Shown here in pieces: positions 5,685 to 18,506 of a stretch of DNA of 20,138 bases. Source of the stretch: a virus; IMG/VR virus record IMGVR_UViG_3300027754_000539, positions 1 to 20,138 of that record; one strand, 5' to 3'. Within the stretch, counting starts at the first letter, position 1. Each line of letters starts with the position of its first letter. Both the position numbers and the translations under genes were made by a program. Below the pieces are notes generated by a model. That model saw only the letters and a list, made by a program, of their open reading frames with translations, did not search any database and was not told where the DNA came from.

Positions 5685-7846
5685 ACAAAAGTTTGTTTAT
5701 TAGAGTCCCTAATAGTTTGATTTATATGTTCCGTTTGCGCTAAAGATTGTGCGTTCATTAATGCCGTTCTTGCACCAGTAATATTTTTTACTAGTTCATG
5801 CTCTCTATCGGCCGCTTTATTAGCGTCGTCAAACTCTAAATTGTCTTGATGAAGTGCTTGCTCTTGCAATAACGCCGCTTTTTTAATGTCTAATTCTTGT
5901 TGCGTAAATTGCGCGTCAGTTGCTTGTTTTTCAGCCTTTAATTGCAATTCTTGTTGTCTAATTTGCATTTCAGCCTGTGCAAGCATTTCCTCGACGCTTG
6001 GTCCTTTTGGCTCTTGTTCTTCTTGCGCAATTAAACTTTCTTCAACATTGCGACCAACTTTATAAGGCTTAGAAATAAATAACATAAATTGCTTAAAAGC
6101 ATCTTGCGTAATAATGCCAGACTGCACCAACGGAAAGAATGAGCTTGAAAACTCTGAAATTGAACGGATGTATTCAATGCGATCAGTTTTTTCTTGTTGT
6201 TGGTCAATTTTAATAGTTGAATCGGTTTCAACATCAATCGCAAAAGTTCTTAGTTTATCATCTTTAATAAGTTTTTGTAACTCGGCGCCTTGCTCTGGCG
6301 TAATTGCGTAGCCTTTTAAATCTTCCAAAGGCTTTTTCATTGTTTTTTTGAACTGCTCTTTGGCTTGCTCGTTAAGTTGCTCTAAGCTAGCAACTTGCTC
6401 AGGATTATTGGGGTCGGTTAATGATTGAGCCTCTTTTAATAAAGCATCTAATTTGGCTGTTTGCGCTTTTTCAATTGCTAAAATGTCAACGATTTTAAGT
6501 TGAGTCATTTGTGCTAATTCTTCAATAGAATAATTTTCAACGGTTAATTCACAAAGTAAACGGATTAAATCACGAACCCAAAATTCTAACTCTTTTTGAA
6601 GCGGTTGAATTCGACTAATTGCAAAGTTACCCTTTAATTCTTGAGCCGTTGCCGTTTCTGAGGCGGTGGTTACGCCCCGCACAATATCACTAATGCCCGT
6701 AATATCTCTAATTGAAAAAATTACGCGGTCTTTCCTGTCGTTTAGTTGTGCAATTGTGGCAATGATTTCGCCGAGAGGTTTAAACATCACTAAATCTTGA
6801 ATCTTTTGACCTCCAGTTGAGAGCATTGGCGTCATAGTGCCATCATCACCATTAAATAAATTAACCATATCAGAATTTTCAGCGATTGACGAATAAAGAC
6901 CAGTCGCCTTGCACTGTTCAACTAGAGAGCGTATGCGGGTGTCAATTGTGTTTAATTCTTCTGCTTGAGTTTTGTATTGTCTGTAAAGCGGAATTGGTCG
7001 CAAATCAATTGGATTAGAATTTGAGCCAAGTGGCGCGGCTATCGGAAAAAAATCTTTTAAATTATAAGGGTCTTCATCGTTTGATAAAAGAATACCCCCG
7101 CCGTTCAGCGTTAAAAATAAACAAGATTTTGTTTCTTTGTCCCAAACTTCCCACACTTCAGCCATGGAAAATAATTCATTGTTGTTTTTTTTATTTTTAT
7201 CTTCACCCAATCTTGTCGCATTTAAAGCAACTGCGTTTCCTTTTTTTTCACCAAAATCTTCAACTAATTCATCGCGGGTTTTATAATGTCTAAAGGCTAT
7301 CCATCGAACTCTTGACCATTCTTTGTCAGTTGACATTTTAAAATCTTTCCAATCAACATATTCAATGCGACATTTCTTTTCAGAAGCATCTATTTCTTTT
7401 TCGCCATTTTCTAATGTAATTTCTTTTTCTGGATCATAGCAAACACGAGCCACGCCACGCCCACCAATTAAAAAATCATCGCGACATTTAGAGATTACGG
7501 TTTCCGCATCGGAATCTTTCAAATATAAATCAATCGAACGTTCCATCATTTCGGAAGCAACGCGATTAGTTTCGTTAGAGTCTAAAAATCTTTGCGTTAT
7601 ATTTGTTTTCGGAAGCCTAGAAAATAAAAGCGGGCGAAGTGTTTGCGTATTTGACCAGAAAACATTGTAGCGCTCTTCTGATTGTCCCTCATTGCTGTAA
7701 ACTGTAAAATTTTCGCCCGCTTCTGTTTGCCATTTTTTCTCGTATTTGTCGGCATTCTCAATTTCTTTCGTCCATATTTCAACAAGCCCAGCATCACCCT
7801 TAGAGTGCGTTAAATCTTCTTTATTTTCAACTTGAACACTTTGCAT
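5681..7846 (-). CDS. Portal protein (P22-like)
   Basis: This 721-aa protein matches the size of P22-type portals (about 725 aa). It begins with a long helical region (EIWTKEIENADKYEKKWQTE), then YNVFWSNTQTLRPLLFSRLP, a signature of this portal family. It continues with DDFLIGGRGVARVCYDPEKE and VDWKDFKMSTDKEWSRVRWI, also typical ('D.L..GRGv..v.Y', 'v.w.DF..s.....WV.Wva'). Residues after about 580 are a long Gln/Glu-rich helical tail (AQAEMQIRQQELQLKAEKQA), as expected for the C-terminal barrel that projects into the head. Twelve copies would form the DNA entry channel and dock the terminase. The gene sits right after terL, and its stop overlaps the next start. Confidence 0.9.
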   Translation of the reverse strand: MQSVQVENKEDLTHSKGDAGLVEIWTKEIENADKYEKKWQTEAGENFTVYSNEGQSEERYNVFWSNTQTLRPLLFSRLPKTNITQRFLDSNETNRVASEMMERSIDLYLKDSDAETVISKCRDDFLIGGRGVARVCYDPEKEITLENGEKEIDASEKKCRIEYVDWKDFKMSTDKEWSRVRWIAFRHYKTRDELVEDFGEKKGNAVALNATRLGEDKNKKNNNELFSMAEVWEVWDKETKSCLFLTLNGGGILLSNDEDPYNLKDFFPIAAPLGSNSNPIDLRPIPLYRQYKTQAEELNTIDTRIRSLVEQCKATGLYSSIAENSDMVNLFNGDDGTMTPMLSTGGQKIQDLVMFKPLGEIIATIAQLNDRKDRVIFSIRDITGISDIVRGVTTASETATAQELKGNFAISRIQPLQKELEFWVRDLIRLLCELTVENYSIEELAQMTQLKIVDILAIEKAQTAKLDALLKEAQSLTDPNNPEQVASLEQLNEQAKEQFKKTMKKPLEDLKGYAITPEQGAELQKLIKDDKLRTFAIDVETDSTIKIDQQQEKTDRIEYIRSISEFSSSFFPLVQSGIITQDAFKQFMLFISKPYKVGRNVEESLIAQEEQEPKGPSVEEMLAQAEMQIRQQELQLKAEKQATDAQFTQQELDIKKAALLQEQALHQDNLEFDDANKAADREHELVKNITGARTALMNAQSLAQTEHINQTIRDSNKQTFV

Positions 7847-13057: not shown

Positions 13058-13336
13058 CAAGAGTTAAAAGAAATACAAATCGAGATTAAAAAAGAGCTAG
13101 GCGGGGCGAGTTTAACTCATTTGCTTAATTATTTAGAAAAAGAAATTGGATTTATAATTTTGATAAATTGCAGGGGTTGTCTTTATATTTGTTTTGAAAT
13201 TGACGCAGAATTTGAACAAGATTTTATGTTACTCAACGATAAAAACCAAGCCCTTAACATTTTCGGACAGTCGGAAGAGTTCCAAAGAGAACTTTACGAG
13301 AGAATACAAATTATTAAAAATATTAAGAATAAATAA
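13055..13336 (+). CDS. Hypothetical protein
   Basis: This 93-aa protein was not recognised. It begins with an amphipathic helix (QELKEIQIEIKKELGGASLT), then LLNYLEKEIGFIILINCRGC and LYICFEIDAEFEQDFM, which look like beta strands with CRGC, and ends in a helix (FQRELYERIQIIKNIKNK). It is likely soluble and alpha/beta. Its start lies inside the second 24-nt junction repeat, giving a strong GGGAG site. No known enzyme motif is seen. Confidence 0.55.
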   Translation: MQELKEIQIEIKKELGGASLTHLLNYLEKEIGFIILINCRGCLYICFEIDAEFEQDFMLLNDKNQALNIFGQSEEFQRELYERIQIIKNIKNK

Positions 13337-13341
13337 AACAT

Positions 13342-13509
13342 ATGCACATTTATTTAACACTTATTTTAATATTATTCGGCACAGTTTTAGCATTCACAAA
13401 CCATTTTTTATTCATGGTTTTTATGTTTATTTGCTTTTGCTTATTGATAAATATCATAGTAGACGCCGTTTCATCGATTATTGAAAATGAGAAAGATATT
13501 GACAAATAG
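13342..13509 (+). CDS. Small membrane protein, two segments (55 aa)
   Basis: The frame encodes MHIYLTLILILFGTVLAF, NHFLFMVFMFICFCLLINII and a short charged tail VDAVSSIIENEKDIDK. Two hydrophobic segments are separated by only TNH, so both could span the membrane with the charged tail in the cytoplasm, or they may form one long reentrant segment. Size and layout are compatible with small class II holins or superinfection-exclusion proteins, but no lysis enzyme is in view. The start has an AATATTAAG element 15 nt upstream. It ends just before the promoter at 13525. Confidence 0.55.
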   Translation: MHIYLTLILILFGTVLAFTNHFLFMVFMFICFCLLINIIVDAVSSIIENEKDIDK

Positions 13510-13524
13510 ATTTGGATTTATAAA

Positions 13525-13554
13525 TTGACAAAGAATGATTTTTTTTCATATCAT
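13525..13554 (+). promoter_or_regulatory. Sigma70-type promoter for the replication block
   Basis: TTGACA (13525-13530), an 18-nt spacer and TATCAT (13549-13554, 5 of 6) lie upstream. Transcription would start near 13561, about 240 nt before the first ATG at 13800, producing the structured leader described next. Confidence 0.6.
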
Positions 13555-13560
13555 TTTTTA

Positions 13561-13799
13561 GTTAAAAGTTAATATTTTGGCAAAGGGGGGTTTCATATCC
13601 CCTCTTCGCTTACTTGTGATAATGATTTTTTGGTTGCTAATCATTATCGCTGGGTAGCGAAAAGCCAAGCGGTTCGATAAGATACAACTGCGAGAAACGA
13701 AGTATGCTATCCTTCTTTTAAATCTGGTGGATCAGGTTTATATTTTTATATGGGGTCAAGAATCCACGCTTGACCTCGCCAAATCAAAGCGTGGAGCAT
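13561..13799 (+). promoter_or_regulatory. Structured mRNA leader with competing hairpins over the ribosome site
   Basis: No gene lies here. A hairpin with GATAATGATT (13618-13627) and AATCATTATC (13639-13648) is extended by two outer pairs and by TTCGCT/AGCGAA (13605-13610 with 13656-13661). GGGTAGC (13652-13658) can instead pair with GCTATCC (13706-13712). Near the end, GGTCAAG (13754-13760) pairs with CTTGACC (13769-13775), while TCCACGCTT (13763-13771) pairs with AAGCGTGGA (13787-13795), which contains most of the ribosome site. The last two stems share CTT, so they exclude one another. This is the layout of a translational switch; a ligand or trigger is not known. Confidence 0.6.
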
Positions 13800-13991
13800 A
13801 TGAGAGACATCTTATTTTTAAATATACAAACAACAGGATTTTGTTTTAGACTATTTGGTTATGGTATTTGCATTATTTACTTAAAAAAATCTTCTAGTTA
13901 TTTCGATAGTTATTTCGATAAGTCTAATTCTGATGTTAATTTCTTAAAAATCGGTAAATTTTACATTTATCTTTTGACTAATAAAAATTAA
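13800..13991 (+). CDS. Hypothetical protein controlled by the structured leader
   Basis: This 63-aa protein reads MRDILFLNIQTTGFCFRLFG, YGICIIYLKKSSSYFDSYFD and a beta-like end FLKIGKFYIYLLTNKN. It is rich in aromatic residues and Ser/Lys, with no recognised motif and no confident membrane helix. I chose ATG 13800: GGAG lies just upstream and the codons from the ATG at 13770 would overlap the leader hairpins. The spacing between GGAG and ATG is short (3 nt). The last five residues LTNKN and their codons reappear at the end of the next gene. Confidence 0.5.
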   Translation: MRDILFLNIQTTGFCFRLFGYGICIIYLKKSSSYFDSYFDKSNSDVNFLKIGKFYIYLLTNKN

Positions 13992-14002
13992 CCGTGGAGC
14001 AT
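13990..14002 (+). repeat. Repeated ribosome-site element CGTGGAGCAT (second copy)
   Basis: CGTGGAGCAT at 13993-14002 repeats 13790-13799; both stand just before an ATG. The leader segment TCCACG (13763-13768) is complementary to either copy. Confidence 0.65.
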
Positions 14003-14004
14003 TA

Positions 14005-14358
14005 ATGAATAATCTTTTACCACTCACTTGGAGAATACTAGATGAAGAAATAAAAGTAATTAACAAAGCTTGTGGAAATGTCATTGGCGGTAAGTTAGTT
14101 TATGCAAAAGATAAAACTTTTTTAGTAAGATATTTGAGCAGAAACAAACAAAAACTTTTAATAAGATTTGCTGAAAAAATCACAGATAAAAAGTTATCAG
14201 ATATTGATTTTGGAGAAAATAAAATTGATCAATTAAAAGTAAGAATAATTTTAAGAAAATATCTTAGTAAAATTATTTTTAGAATTGGTTTTGCTAGATT
14301 TTATTTAAGATTGATGTCGGTAAATATTTATATAAACAATTTGACTAACAAAAATTAA
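14005..14358 (+). CDS. Hypothetical basic protein
   Basis: This 117-aa protein was not recognised. It opens with PLTWRILDEEIKVINKACGN, then a beta-like GGKLVYAKDKTFLVRYLSRN, and a strongly basic helical second half (LKVRIILRKYLSKIIFRIGF, then ARFYLRLMS). It may bind nucleic acid by charge, which is inference. The start uses the second CGTGGAGCAT copy. It lies just ahead of the replication genes. Its end repeats the LTNKN codons of the previous gene (17 of 18 bases match). Confidence 0.5.
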   Translation: MNNLLPLTWRILDEEIKVINKACGNVIGGKLVYAKDKTFLVRYLSRNKQKLLIRFAEKITDKKLSDIDFGENKIDQLKVRIILRKYLSKIIFRIGFARFYLRLMSVNIYINNLTNKN

Positions 14359-14366
14359 TAAATATT

Positions 14367-14597
14367 ATGAAAGGGCATTTTATGCAAATACAGGAAATAG
14401 GTTTTAATATGGAAGAACAAATAAATAGGTTGCACAATAGACATTTAGCAAAGTTATTATCTCAATTAAACGAGATTAACACACCGCAAATAATCATTGA
14501 TACAATTAAAAAACAACTTTCATTTTACACTAAGGATATTAAGGAACAAGTTTTAACAAGTAATTTTTCTAATCATGACAATTCAAACACAAAATAA
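14367..14597 (+). CDS. Hypothetical helical protein upstream of the replication genes
   Basis: This protein is up to 76 aa, helical and charged (EEQINRLHNRHLAKLLSQLN, then KKQLSFYTKDIKEQ). It was not recognised. The start is uncertain: ATG 14367 has only an A-rich leader, ATG 14382 has AAAGGG 6 nt upstream and ATG 14409 has ATAGG 7 nt upstream. Its end overlaps the next gene by 23 nt, so the two are probably coupled and it may serve in replication initiation, though nothing in its sequence proves this. Confidence 0.45.
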   Translation: MKGHFMQIQEIGFNMEEQINRLHNRHLAKLLSQLNEINTPQIIIDTIKKQLSFYTKDIKEQVLTSNFSNHDNSNTK

Positions 14598-15204
14598 ATC
14601 TTTTATACTACACAAAGATAGTTTATCAATCTTAAATAAACTATCAGATGAAGAAGCTGGAAAACTTTTTAAAGCAATTTATAACTTCCAAACTCAAAAC
14701 ATTTTGCCTACTGAAAAAATGATTGATTGCATTTTTGAGCCGTTTTTAAATCAATTTAAAAGAGATGAAGAAAAGTATCAAAATGTTGTTGAAAGGAATA
14801 AAATCAATATTGCAAAGAGGTGGAATAAACCTAATACCAAAAATACCACTCGTAAAACTCGTATACCAAAAGATACCAAAAATACCGATAGTGATAGTAA
14901 GAATGATAGTGATAGTGATAGTGATAGTAAGAATGATAGTGATTTACCAATCTTTATAAATAAAGATTTATTTAACGCTTTTGTTGAAATGCGTATAAAG
15001 ATTAAAAAACCGCTGACAGAAGTAGCAAGAGAGTTGTTAATAAAAAACCTAATAAAATTTGAAACAAAACAAAAAGGCTTTGCCAATGAAGCTTTAGAAA
15101 ATTCAATCCAAAATTCCTATCAAGGAGTATTTGAACCAAAGCAAAATAACAACTTTCAAAACAAAACACAGGGGGTATCAGAATGGAAACGTATAATCAG
15201 TTAA
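14575..15204 (+). CDS. DUF6291-like replication protein (initiator or helicase-loader type)
   Basis: This 209-aa protein has three parts. Residues 8-35 (SFILHKDSLSILNKLSDEEA, then GKLFKAIYNFQ) match the N-terminal DUF6291-type helical domain of phage replication proteins. Residues about 85-125 are a basic patch followed by a Ser/Asp repeat linker. Residues 125-190 (LFNAFVEMRIKIKKPLTEVA, then ENSIQNSYQGVFEPK) match the C-terminal pattern common in phage replication proteins ('W..F...R.k.kkp.t', 's...gw.G.f.p'). These proteins are usually encoded just before a helicase or loader and help start replication. Here the gene overlaps dnaB by 22 nt, supporting that role. Confidence 0.72.
   Translation: MTIQTQNKSFILHKDSLSILNKLSDEEAGKLFKAIYNFQTQNILPTEKMIDCIFEPFLNQFKRDEEKYQNVVERNKINIAKRWNKPNTKNTTRKTRIPKDTKNTDSDSKNDSDSDSDSKNDSDLPIFINKDLFNAFVEMRIKIKKPLTEVARELLIKNLIKFETKQKGFANEALENSIQNSYQGVFEPKQNNNFQNKTQGVSEWKRIIS
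14887..14943 (+). repeat. GATAGT/AAGAAT microsatellite inside the replication gene
   Basis: Hexamers GATAGT and AAGAAT repeat in frame, encoding the SDSKNDSD linker twice. An 18-bp unit (GATAGTGATAGTAAGAAT) occurs at 14887-14904 and again at 14917-14934. Slippage would change linker length by two residues per hexamer. Confidence 0.9.
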
Positions 15205-16565
15205 ATCAAGAAATTTGCAATGTTGATGCAGAGCAATCATTACTTGGTGCAATAATTTTAAATAATAATTATTTAATTACTGTTCAAGATATTCTAAAGC
15301 CTGAACATTTTCATTATACTACGCATCAAAAAATTTATTCTCACATAATTTATTGTGTTGAAAAAAATAATATTGTTGCTGATAGAATCACATTAAAACA
15401 ACTTTTTGAAACCGATCCCGATATTAAAAATGATGGAGGAGTTAAATATTTGTCAGTTTTACTTAGTGGAGCTAGTAGTTTTGGAATTAGGGATTATGCC
15501 GATATTATCATTGATTGCTGGAAAAGAAGGGAGTTAAAAAATTATATTCAAAAAATCTTAGAAAAAATTTCTATTCCCTCAAATTCTTTTCACGATTTAT
15601 CTTCCGAGCTATCCCAAAAGATTGAAAATCTTGATATCGATGAACAAACTCAACCAAGACCAATTGCAAATGTTGTTGCTGAAAAATTGTGGGATATGGC
15701 AAATAAAAAGAATGATGAAATTGTTTCAACTGGATTTATAGGGCTAGATGACAAAACGGGAGGGTTTAACAAGGGTTATTTAGTAATTATAGCTGGTAGA
15801 CCATCTATGGGTAAAACTACCTTCTCATTGTGCTTAGCAAAGGAAATTGCAAAAAATGACCATGTTCTTTATATTTCAATCGAAATGACATCAAAACAAA
15901 TCATTTCAAAAATAATTGGAAACGAAGCTAGCATAAATTTAAAAAAAATAAAGTTAAACGATCTTGATAAATCCGAATTAGAAACCGCTTGTAATGCTGG
16001 AGAAAGAATTGGAGAATTAAAATTTAATATCGATTATCCAACCAAGGGAATAACTATTAGAAGTTTAAAAACTAAGATTAAAAGACAAGTTGAAAAATTT
16101 AAAACTAAAGTTGTTTTTATCGACCATCTTGGAAAGATTAAATCAGAAGGTAAAACTTGGAGTAAAAACGAAGAAGTTTCGCAAATAACCAATTCATTAA
16201 AAGATATAGCCAACGAACTTGGAATAGTTATCGTAGTATTATCTCAATTATCAAGAGCTGTTGAACAAAGACAAGATAAAAGACCGCAATTAAGTGATTT
16301 AAGAGATTCTGGAAGCATTGAGCAAGATGCCGATATAGTTATGTTTTGCTTTAGAGCTGAATACTATCTTGAAAGATGCATGCCTAGCAAAGTTTATGAA
16401 CCGAACGATTATGCTGAGTGGGAGCGTGAATTAAGTAAGGTAAGAGGGTTATGCGAAATCATAATCGCAAAAGCAAGGGAAGGAGAACCACAAACCGCTA
16501 GATTTAATTTTAACGGAAGCTATGGAAGATTCACTGAAATACAGGAGCAAAATGACTCATATTAA
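15183..16565 (+). CDS. dnaB: Replicative DNA helicase (DnaB-like)
   Basis: This 460-aa protein has full DnaB architecture. The N-terminal helical domain is at residues 9-115 (NVDAEQSLLGAIILNNNYLI, FHYTTHQKIYSHI). The RecA-like motor has Walker A GRPSMGKTT at 205-213, catalytic Glu in SIEM (E234), Walker B VVFIDHL at 310-316, LSQLSR at 353-358, and the block RPQLSDLRDSGSIEQDAD at 367-384 that contains the conserved hairpin and arginine region. It is a 5'-3' ring helicase at the fork. The length is normal (about 450-475). The start has GGGGG 7 nt upstream and overlaps the previous gene. No primase is fused, so priming must come from elsewhere. Confidence 0.95.
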   Translation: METYNQLNQEICNVDAEQSLLGAIILNNNYLITVQDILKPEHFHYTTHQKIYSHIIYCVEKNNIVADRITLKQLFETDPDIKNDGGVKYLSVLLSGASSFGIRDYADIIIDCWKRRELKNYIQKILEKISIPSNSFHDLSSELSQKIENLDIDEQTQPRPIANVVAEKLWDMANKKNDEIVSTGFIGLDDKTGGFNKGYLVIIAGRPSMGKTTFSLCLAKEIAKNDHVLYISIEMTSKQIISKIIGNEASINLKKIKLNDLDKSELETACNAGERIGELKFNIDYPTKGITIRSLKTKIKRQVEKFKTKVVFIDHLGKIKSEGKTWSKNEEVSQITNSLKDIANELGIVIVVLSQLSRAVEQRQDKRPQLSDLRDSGSIEQDADIVMFCFRAEYYLERCMPSKVYEPNDYAEWERELSKVRGLCEIIIAKAREGEPQTARFNFNGSYGRFTEIQEQNDSY

Positions 16566-18337: not shown

Positions 18338-18413
18338 ATCAGATTAGCTCAGCGGTTAGAGCAAAACACTCATAATGTTTGGGTCGGTGGTTCAAATCCA
18401 TCATCTGATACCA
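18338..18413 (+). tRNA. tRNA with CAT anticodon (Ile2 or elongator Met)
   Basis: The tRNA is 76 nt and all stems form. The acceptor is ATCAGAT/ATCTGAT, D-arm GCTC-AGCGGTTA-GAGC, anticodon arm AAACA-CTCATAA-TGTTT, T-arm GGTGG-TTCAAAT-CCATC, discriminator A and an encoded CCA. The anticodon stem lacks the GGG/CCC of initiators. The 8-nt D-loop and the GGTCG.TGG junction resemble tRNA-Ile2 (CAT, modified to lysidine) more than elongator Met, which would suit ATA-rich genes. The first pair A-U is unusual for both. Confidence 0.9.
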
Positions 18414-18428
18414 ATTAAATCGTAAATT

Positions 18429-18506
18429 CAGGGGGTAGGATAATCTGGTTATTCCGCTTGTTTTGGAAACAAGAGATTGGAGGTTCAAATCCTCCCTCCC
18501 TGACCA
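18429..18506 (+). tRNA. tRNA-Pro(TGG)
   Basis: The tRNA is 78 nt with acceptor CAGGGGG pairing CTCCCTG (one G-U), a weak D-stem (GGA/TCC), anticodon arm CTTGT-TTTGGAA-ACAAG giving anticodon TGG, T-arm GGAGG-TTCAAAT-CCTCC, discriminator A and an encoded CCA. The first base C fits bacterial tRNA-Pro. Confidence 0.9.

Follow-up and report, generated by a model that had tools for sequence, protein, structure and literature searches.

The leader and its place in the phage genome

The locus raises a simple question: does the structured leader in front of the replication genes control their translation, and if so, by which pairings? The window (the whole stretch of DNA analysed here, a 20.1-kb IMG/VR phage record) carries the terminase, the portal and other head genes on its minus strand; small genes, together with an O-like initiator and DnaB, occupy the plus strand. 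The first-pass annotation had placed a promoter at 13525 and a structured leader before the ATG at 13800, with two mutually exclusive hairpins, one of which would mask the ribosome site of the next gene.

We observed that the general setting was correctly seen. The leader opens the operon to which the replication genes belong, and the proposed promoter matches the consensus well (Table 1), in a region where promoter-like sites occur overall without excess (6 found against 5.0 expected). Transcription of the leader probably begins near 13561. The leader folds at -78.7 kcal/mol (z -4.1), a value equalled by none of 200 shuffles. We also looked for intrinsic terminators, and attenuation through such a terminator was rejected, as there were 0 terminator-like sites within 13300-14100.

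Table 1. Features of the leader and the operon behind it (window coordinates)
Feature	Position	Strand	Letters	Remarks
Probable promoter	13525-13554	+	TTGACA-18-TATCAT	11/12 consensus letters
P1	13584-13605	+	AGGGGGG/CCCCTCT	G+C-rich hairpin; position kept, letters differ among homologues
P2	13606-13660	+	TCGCT 13606-13610 / AGCGA 13656-13660	encloses long hairpin P2b
P4	13652-13712	+	GGGTAG 13652-13657 / CTATCC 13707-13712	pseudoknot crossing P2
P3	13669-13691	+	GCGGTT-CGATAAGATAC-AACTGC	
H1 hairpin	13719-13740	+	TAAATCTG-GTGGAT-CAGGTTTA	8/8 pairs in 20/21 homologues; three pairs with two-sided change
H1 loop, X copy 1	13727-13732	+	GTGGAT	proposed decoy and kissing partner; tracks H2 loop in every code
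H2 hairpin	13752-13777	+	GGGGTCAAG-AATCCACG-CTTGACCTC	9/9 pairs in 21/21 homologues; six pairs with two-sided change
H2 loop, X'	13761-13768	+	AATCCACG	anti-start-site
A-rich linker	13778-13788	+	GCCAAATCAAA	near-invariant in window clade; length differs by one or two A (alignment)
X copy 2	13789-13796	+	GCGTGGAG (including CGTGGAG)	contains Shine-Dalgarno of next gene; complementary to H2 loop, tracks it in every code
First gene, putatively regulated	13800-13991	+		63 aa, function unassigned; slot holds many unrelated small genes in other phages
Second operon gene	13992-14358	+	orphan X CCGTGGAGC 13992-14000	before ATG 14005; without H1/H2 of its own
Replication genes of the operon	14575-16565	+		DUF6291 / O-like initiator and DnaB helicase

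One loop with two partners

The core of the module (13719-13802) consists, in order, of H1 with X in its loop, H2 with X' in its loop, an A-rich linker, and X once more, at the ribosome site that serves the ATG at 13800. Both complementarities noted earlier in this part are present (GGTCAAG 13754-13760 with CTTGACC 13769-13775, and TCCACGCTT 13763-13771 with AAGCGTGGA 13787-13795). Their reading as two exclusive stems did not hold: the three-letter overlap (CTT/AAG) is not kept in relatives with the loop CCCGCACG, and all that every homologue retains of the supposed 9-bp start-site helix is the pairing of the loop letters 13763-13768. The two-hairpin scheme had also missed the true competitor, which is the loop of H1. 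The H1 loop and the start site compete for one set of letters in the H2 loop, and this is the truly exclusive choice. The idea that one structure would cover the ribosome site of the next gene, and that an alternative would free it, stands in this altered form.

H-type pseudoknots are usually built of a 9-bp stem, one or two letters and a second helix of 6-7 bp, with no spacer and an 11-13 nt A-rich strand. We observed that the H2 stem is 100% paired in the homologues with six compensated pairs, and that the pairing of its loop with the start site has two compensated positions; stem and loop pairing are predicted to be compatible as an H-type pseudoknot. The length of the linker would suit the third loop of such a fold.

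As nearest-neighbour duplex values without tertiary terms, the energies for the window module are -8.5 for the kiss between the two loops and -8.6 for the start site. With flanking letters included, most modules (the window's among them) pair more strongly at the start site than in the kiss, so that the off state could be the default.

An ATG lies at the 5' base of H2 (13750-13752 in the window), after a T-rich run, in all modules including the distant ones. A leader peptide starting from it was considered and rejected, since neither frame nor length is kept (by-eye check of the sequences).

Close homologues keep the pairing while the letters change

Relatives were collected from IMG/VR, where the terminase as protein query led to 80 loci and DnaB to three. 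A profile of the leader DNA (nhmmer) matched loci L006, L054, L044 and L003, and pattern scans brought the total to 22 distinct homologues, of which one ends before H2, leaving 21 complete. All 21 have an ATG within a few bases after the module. Most members of the family are metagenome contigs.

The first-pass annotation had itself named a lack of covariation in related phages as a finding that would refute it, and the idea of a switch survived this comparison. The 21 complete homologues hold 11 distinct 3' modules, and H2 is paired at 9/9 positions in every one of them, with arms that vary from GGGGTCAAG/CTTGACCTC to GGGGCTAAT/ATTAGCCTC, GAAGTGTAG/CTACACTTC, GACACTAAG/CTTAGTGTC and GAGGTTTAG/CTAGACCTC. 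The H2 loop itself occurs as AATCCACG, CCTCCACG or CCCGCACG. In step with it, the H1 loop reads GTGGAT, GTGGAG or GTGCGAG, and the start site CGTGGAG or CGTGCGG (GTGCGG in L003 and L054). One loop position (A or C) is tracked by the H1 loop only. In a formal count over 18 distinct rows, 96% of the cells were paired and 11 pairs showed two-sided change, counts that are not corrected for shared descent; none of 500 shuffles was as good, and a slid register gave 23-43% paired.

Natural deletions were also seen. L196 (1095-1172) and L200 (900-977), two identical copies that stand beyond the 22, are without the H2 3' arm and the start-site X, and L025 (2640-2735) is without the second X only. The module is therefore dispensable in some phages.

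We further searched for the leader elsewhere. A pattern scan of genome contigs from hosts gave 41 stretches, none of them a full homologue by profile, and a DNA search of isolated phages gave no similar leader. Isolated phages with the nearest helicase-loader or terminase genes yielded no convincing triple match (two weak matches lie away from an initiator gene), and the letters between P4 and H1, used to extend the family, gave chance matches only. All members known so far come from environmental phages of lakes and the sea that are related through their terminase.

Distant members carry private codes

A covariance model (R1) of H1, H2 and the tail gave weak matches in four loci, each just 5' of replication genes. 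We observed that the letters differ in all four, and that the X-X'-X rule is identical: GTAGGGC - GCCCTAC - GTAGGG in L055, GTGCGG - CCGCAC - GTGCGG in L027, GTTCGGG - CCCGAAC - GTTCGGG in L060, and AGGGGAC - GTCCCCT in L025, where the last copy is lost. A scan with the box TTCTTAGRAAYAGGGGTTRAGAG, which is common to these loci, added L274, L275, L276 and L281. The members recognised by R1 and the triple match are L055, L027, L060, L274, L275, L276, L281 (two modules), L328, L069 and L302/L305, all of unrelated sequence. At least nine diverged modules exist beyond the 21 complete close homologues. These distant members are weak by R1 alone (E 0.004 to 0.5) and their assignment rests on the code match, L275 being detected by the code rule only.

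There are nine versions of the code (among them GTGGA, GTGCGG, GTAGGG, GTTCGGG, AGGGGAC, GGTTCAC, GGACTGAT and AGGTTCAA), and X' tracks both copies of X in each. When the H2 loops were permuted among the nine codes, 1 and 3 of 200,000 permutations reached the observed match. The matching letters thus appear to change together between phages, like a private lock-and-key code. Two phages have tandem modules with different codes, each before a gene of its own: L281 (AGGGGAC and GGTTCAC, at 6900-7520) and L328 (second module; 13201-13947). In L069 and L302 the module is followed by one and the same DUF6291-like gene, near-identical at its start (ATGACA[AC]ATCAAAATACTAGAGAT), and their codes differ at all three sites.

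We also scanned whole records for the bare rule (X, a hairpin with X', X, a start codon). In nine records, the scan returned modules before genes of the replication operon and one false match, with none in shuffles; in further records, it returned the second module of L328, the marine-type L069/L307 (GGACTGAT) and L302/L305 (AGGTTCAA), against 0.33 in shuffles. Because it demands six identical letters on each side, the scan misses some modules of the window clade that the profile had recovered. Among about 1,030 anchored hairpins outside the family, 2 satisfy the rule by chance. At the level of sequence comparison, these results show the RNA itself, its three-way pairing, the joint change of its letters and its place in the genome.

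In L025, L030, L055, L060 and L274-L282, the stretch 5' of the box TTCTTAGRAAYAGGGGTTRAGAG is noncoding, conserved over as much as 300 nt and apparently structured (e.g. CGAACCCGAAAGGATCGCACCAGYGGGGGACA); Rfam has no match for it.

A switch acting in cis is the favoured reading

The reading that we favour, with a probability of about 0.6, is a translational switch that acts in cis on genes of the replication operon through a single loop that two partners match. Both hairpins would fold while the leader is being made. If X' of H2 then kisses the X of H1, the start site of the next gene would be free (on); if instead it takes as its partner the second X, the one at the start codon or ribosome site, the start site would be hidden (off), in an H-type pseudoknot made from the intact H2 stem and the A-rich linker. 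Pairing at the start site would presumably block translation, and the direction of the switch is likewise presumed. Because the two copies of X have the same or almost the same strength, slight influences could set the balance, and these could be the timing of transcription, ribosomes, the 5' domain or a protein. The target would be the first gene of the replication operon, which in several relatives is the initiator or helicase loader itself.

Such a switch resembles the anti-Shine-Dalgarno hairpins of type I toxin mRNAs (aapA3, PMC6733600), in which successive alternative structures gate a ribosome site during transcription. It differs from them in its decoy, which repeats the ribosome-site letters in a loop of its own, and in a code that changes from one relative to the next.

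If true, the leader belongs to a family of regulatory RNAs that is new for phages and missing from Rfam, and that guards the entry to replication in uncultured lake and marine phages. It would be a case of a regulatory RNA in which three segments stay exactly complementary through many changes of letters. The private codes predict that swapping six to eight letters would switch control on or off, and such a code swap would separate control in cis from self-recognition in trans.

Comparison with antisense RNAs that act in trans

The main rival, which we consider unlikely, is a trans-acting antisense RNA for self-recognition in the style of P4 CI or P1/P7 c4. The H2 part would be excised from the leader, and through pairing of its X' with the X of further transcripts from that phage it would silence the replication genes of sibling or superinfecting genomes; the codes would then be immunity or incompatibility types. 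In P4, replication genes are shut off by the CI RNA, which pairs with one target on its upstream side (seqA) and one on its downstream side (seqC) (PMC4825925). The c4 RNA, which determines the heteroimmunity of P1/P7, blocks access to a ribosome site (PMC12197685).

The order X - X' - X is that of P4 (seqA, seqB in the CI RNA, seqC): in all intact modules the targets, in H1 and at the start site, flank the complementary loop, within one untranslated leader before replication genes, and specificity comes from a short complementary stretch. This analogy rests on the cited papers. As in the c4 RNAs of P1/P7/N15 (RF01695), a complementary target coincides with the ribosome site of the gene that directly follows, and the codes differ between related phages; the diversification of the codes, including those of tandem modules within one phage, would fit immunity types.

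Several features argue against this rival. Unlike in P4, the whole X - X' - X arrangement fits into less than 100 nt, with the first X carried by a hairpin of its own (H1) and the second forming the start codon or ribosome site; neither a terminator, which would bound a small RNA, nor an integrase was found. The X in H1 adjoins X' and would block it unless removed. Unlike in c4, there is one loop rather than two complementary segments, and the structure is another one. RF01695 gave no match at the gathering threshold in the window and 10 related loci, nor in the leader at E up to 5. Lysogeny is unsupported as well: no tyrosine integrase (PF00589) was found in 14 records and no serine recombinase (PF00239) in 11, although these records may be fragments.

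We also examined where X occurs elsewhere in the genomes. In 15 records scanned, X stands at no ORF start besides the module's own, with few exceptions (the second gene of the window, and a minus-strand GTAGGG at 12047 in L274); a second minus-strand site in L274, at 32072, is the reverse complement of its own module. In L302 and L069 this search missed the module itself, since X runs into the start codon. A regulon in trans within one genome was therefore rejected. The near-uniqueness of the start-site X to the module's own gene speaks for self-recognition by an RNA in trans.

A combined form, self-recognition in virulent phages, is in our view rather doubtful. The H2 loop would act in cis and also on transcripts of siblings or competitors with the same code, code divergence would set compatibility groups among environmental phages, and the modules would travel as coded cassettes together with exchangeable genes.

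The 5' domain and the riboswitch reading

That the leader is a ligand-binding riboswitch, with P1-P4 as the aptamer and H1-H2-X as the expression platform, is improbable. In its favour, the window clade has a conserved, pseudoknotted 5' domain directly before H1, with invariant loops (GGTTGC, in P2b, and GATAAGATAC). The upstream complementarities that had been pointed out (P2 and P4) are present, with a strong hairpin between them. P2 changes from TCGCT/AGCGA to TCACT/AGTGA in other homologues and has 5/5 pairs in all 22; P4 changes from GGATAG/CTATCC to GGAAAG/CTTTCC and has 6/6. Thus, both partners claimed for GGGTAGCGAA are kept and each is compensated, but they are not exclusive: the two helices share only AG and are largely compatible. 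P3 reads ACTGCT-TGATAAGATAC-AGCGGT or GCGGTA/TACTGC in homologues. All of P1-P4 are kept in the window clade with compensatory changes, the exception being L131 and L115, where P3 is replaced.

Against an aptamer, the 5' domain is unrelated in a second clade, which has a TTCTTAGRAAYAGGGGTT box instead, and is absent from the second module of L281 and from L069, where a promoter lies directly 5' of H1. As the domain differs or is missing in other members, a classical riboswitch is unlikely, and from these comparisons the 5' domain appears to be a non-essential part of the module. The genes downstream share no pathway. The first-pass annotation had likened the leader to riboswitches and RNA thermometers, a likeness left unsupported by this varying would-be sensor domain, and had recognised no known riboswitch class in it: cmscan against Rfam, at the gathering threshold and at a permissive E-value, returned nothing credible for a riboswitch or small RNA, and no aptamer domain is conserved across the members. 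There was no Rfam match to a thermometer either, and the conserved pairing runs from the loop to the start site across the A-rich linker. A group I intron, suggested by the letters AACTGCGAGAAAC, was rejected, as no Rfam intron matched.

Two insertions were seen beside these elements: AAAACTCACCTCGCTCATGAGTTT between P4 and H1, common to L122, L124, L095 and L131, and 38 nt between H1 and H2 in L132.

The genes behind the module

Autogenous control, in which a phage protein would bind the H2/X pseudoknot and repress its own operon as T4 gp32 does, is very improbable. The pseudoknot does sit at the ribosome site, and the operators of T4 and RB69 diverge in sequence and yet work with either protein (PMC535899), which would allow for letters that change. 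Like the gene 32 operator of these phages, the module is a phage H-type pseudoknot in the initiation region of a replication gene that diverges between relatives; unlike it, the pseudoknot here covers the ribosome site, has an RNA competitor in the H1 loop, and implies no protein. The exact match of the H1 loop to X is unexplained by a protein.

The first genes themselves argue against a common product as repressor, as they belong to at least 12 unrelated families across phages. The gene behind the module is a DnaD-like helicase loader in L060 and L281, a DUF6291-like or primosomal protein in L027, L069, L302 and L275, and a PDDEXK nuclease followed by a helicase loader in L274; HNH is also among these genes. 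In the window clade a small gene comes first and the replication genes lie further 3'.

A purely structural role, with the triple complementarity serving, for example, dimerisation or RNA stability, is hardly credible: kissing loops can also join two RNA molecules, but in every case X coincides with the start codon or ribosome site of the next gene, and its letters follow those of the loop.

Many of the first genes in the window clade end in TTTGACTAAYAAAAATTAA. In the window, this sequence is a direct repeat that closes two successive small genes (13974-13990 and 14341-14357), and it probably marks the right-hand end of gene cassettes that can be exchanged behind the RNA. The orphan X before the second gene of the window matches the window's H2 loop and has no hairpins of its own, and L006 and L102 have similar orphan start-site segments, mismatched to their own H2 loops. 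The shared TTTGACTAAYAAAAATTAA ends, together with these orphan segments, suggest that gene and module are inserted or exchanged as cassettes.

Two tRNA genes, Met(CAT) and Pro(TGG), lie 3' of the replication genes at 18338-18506 of the window.
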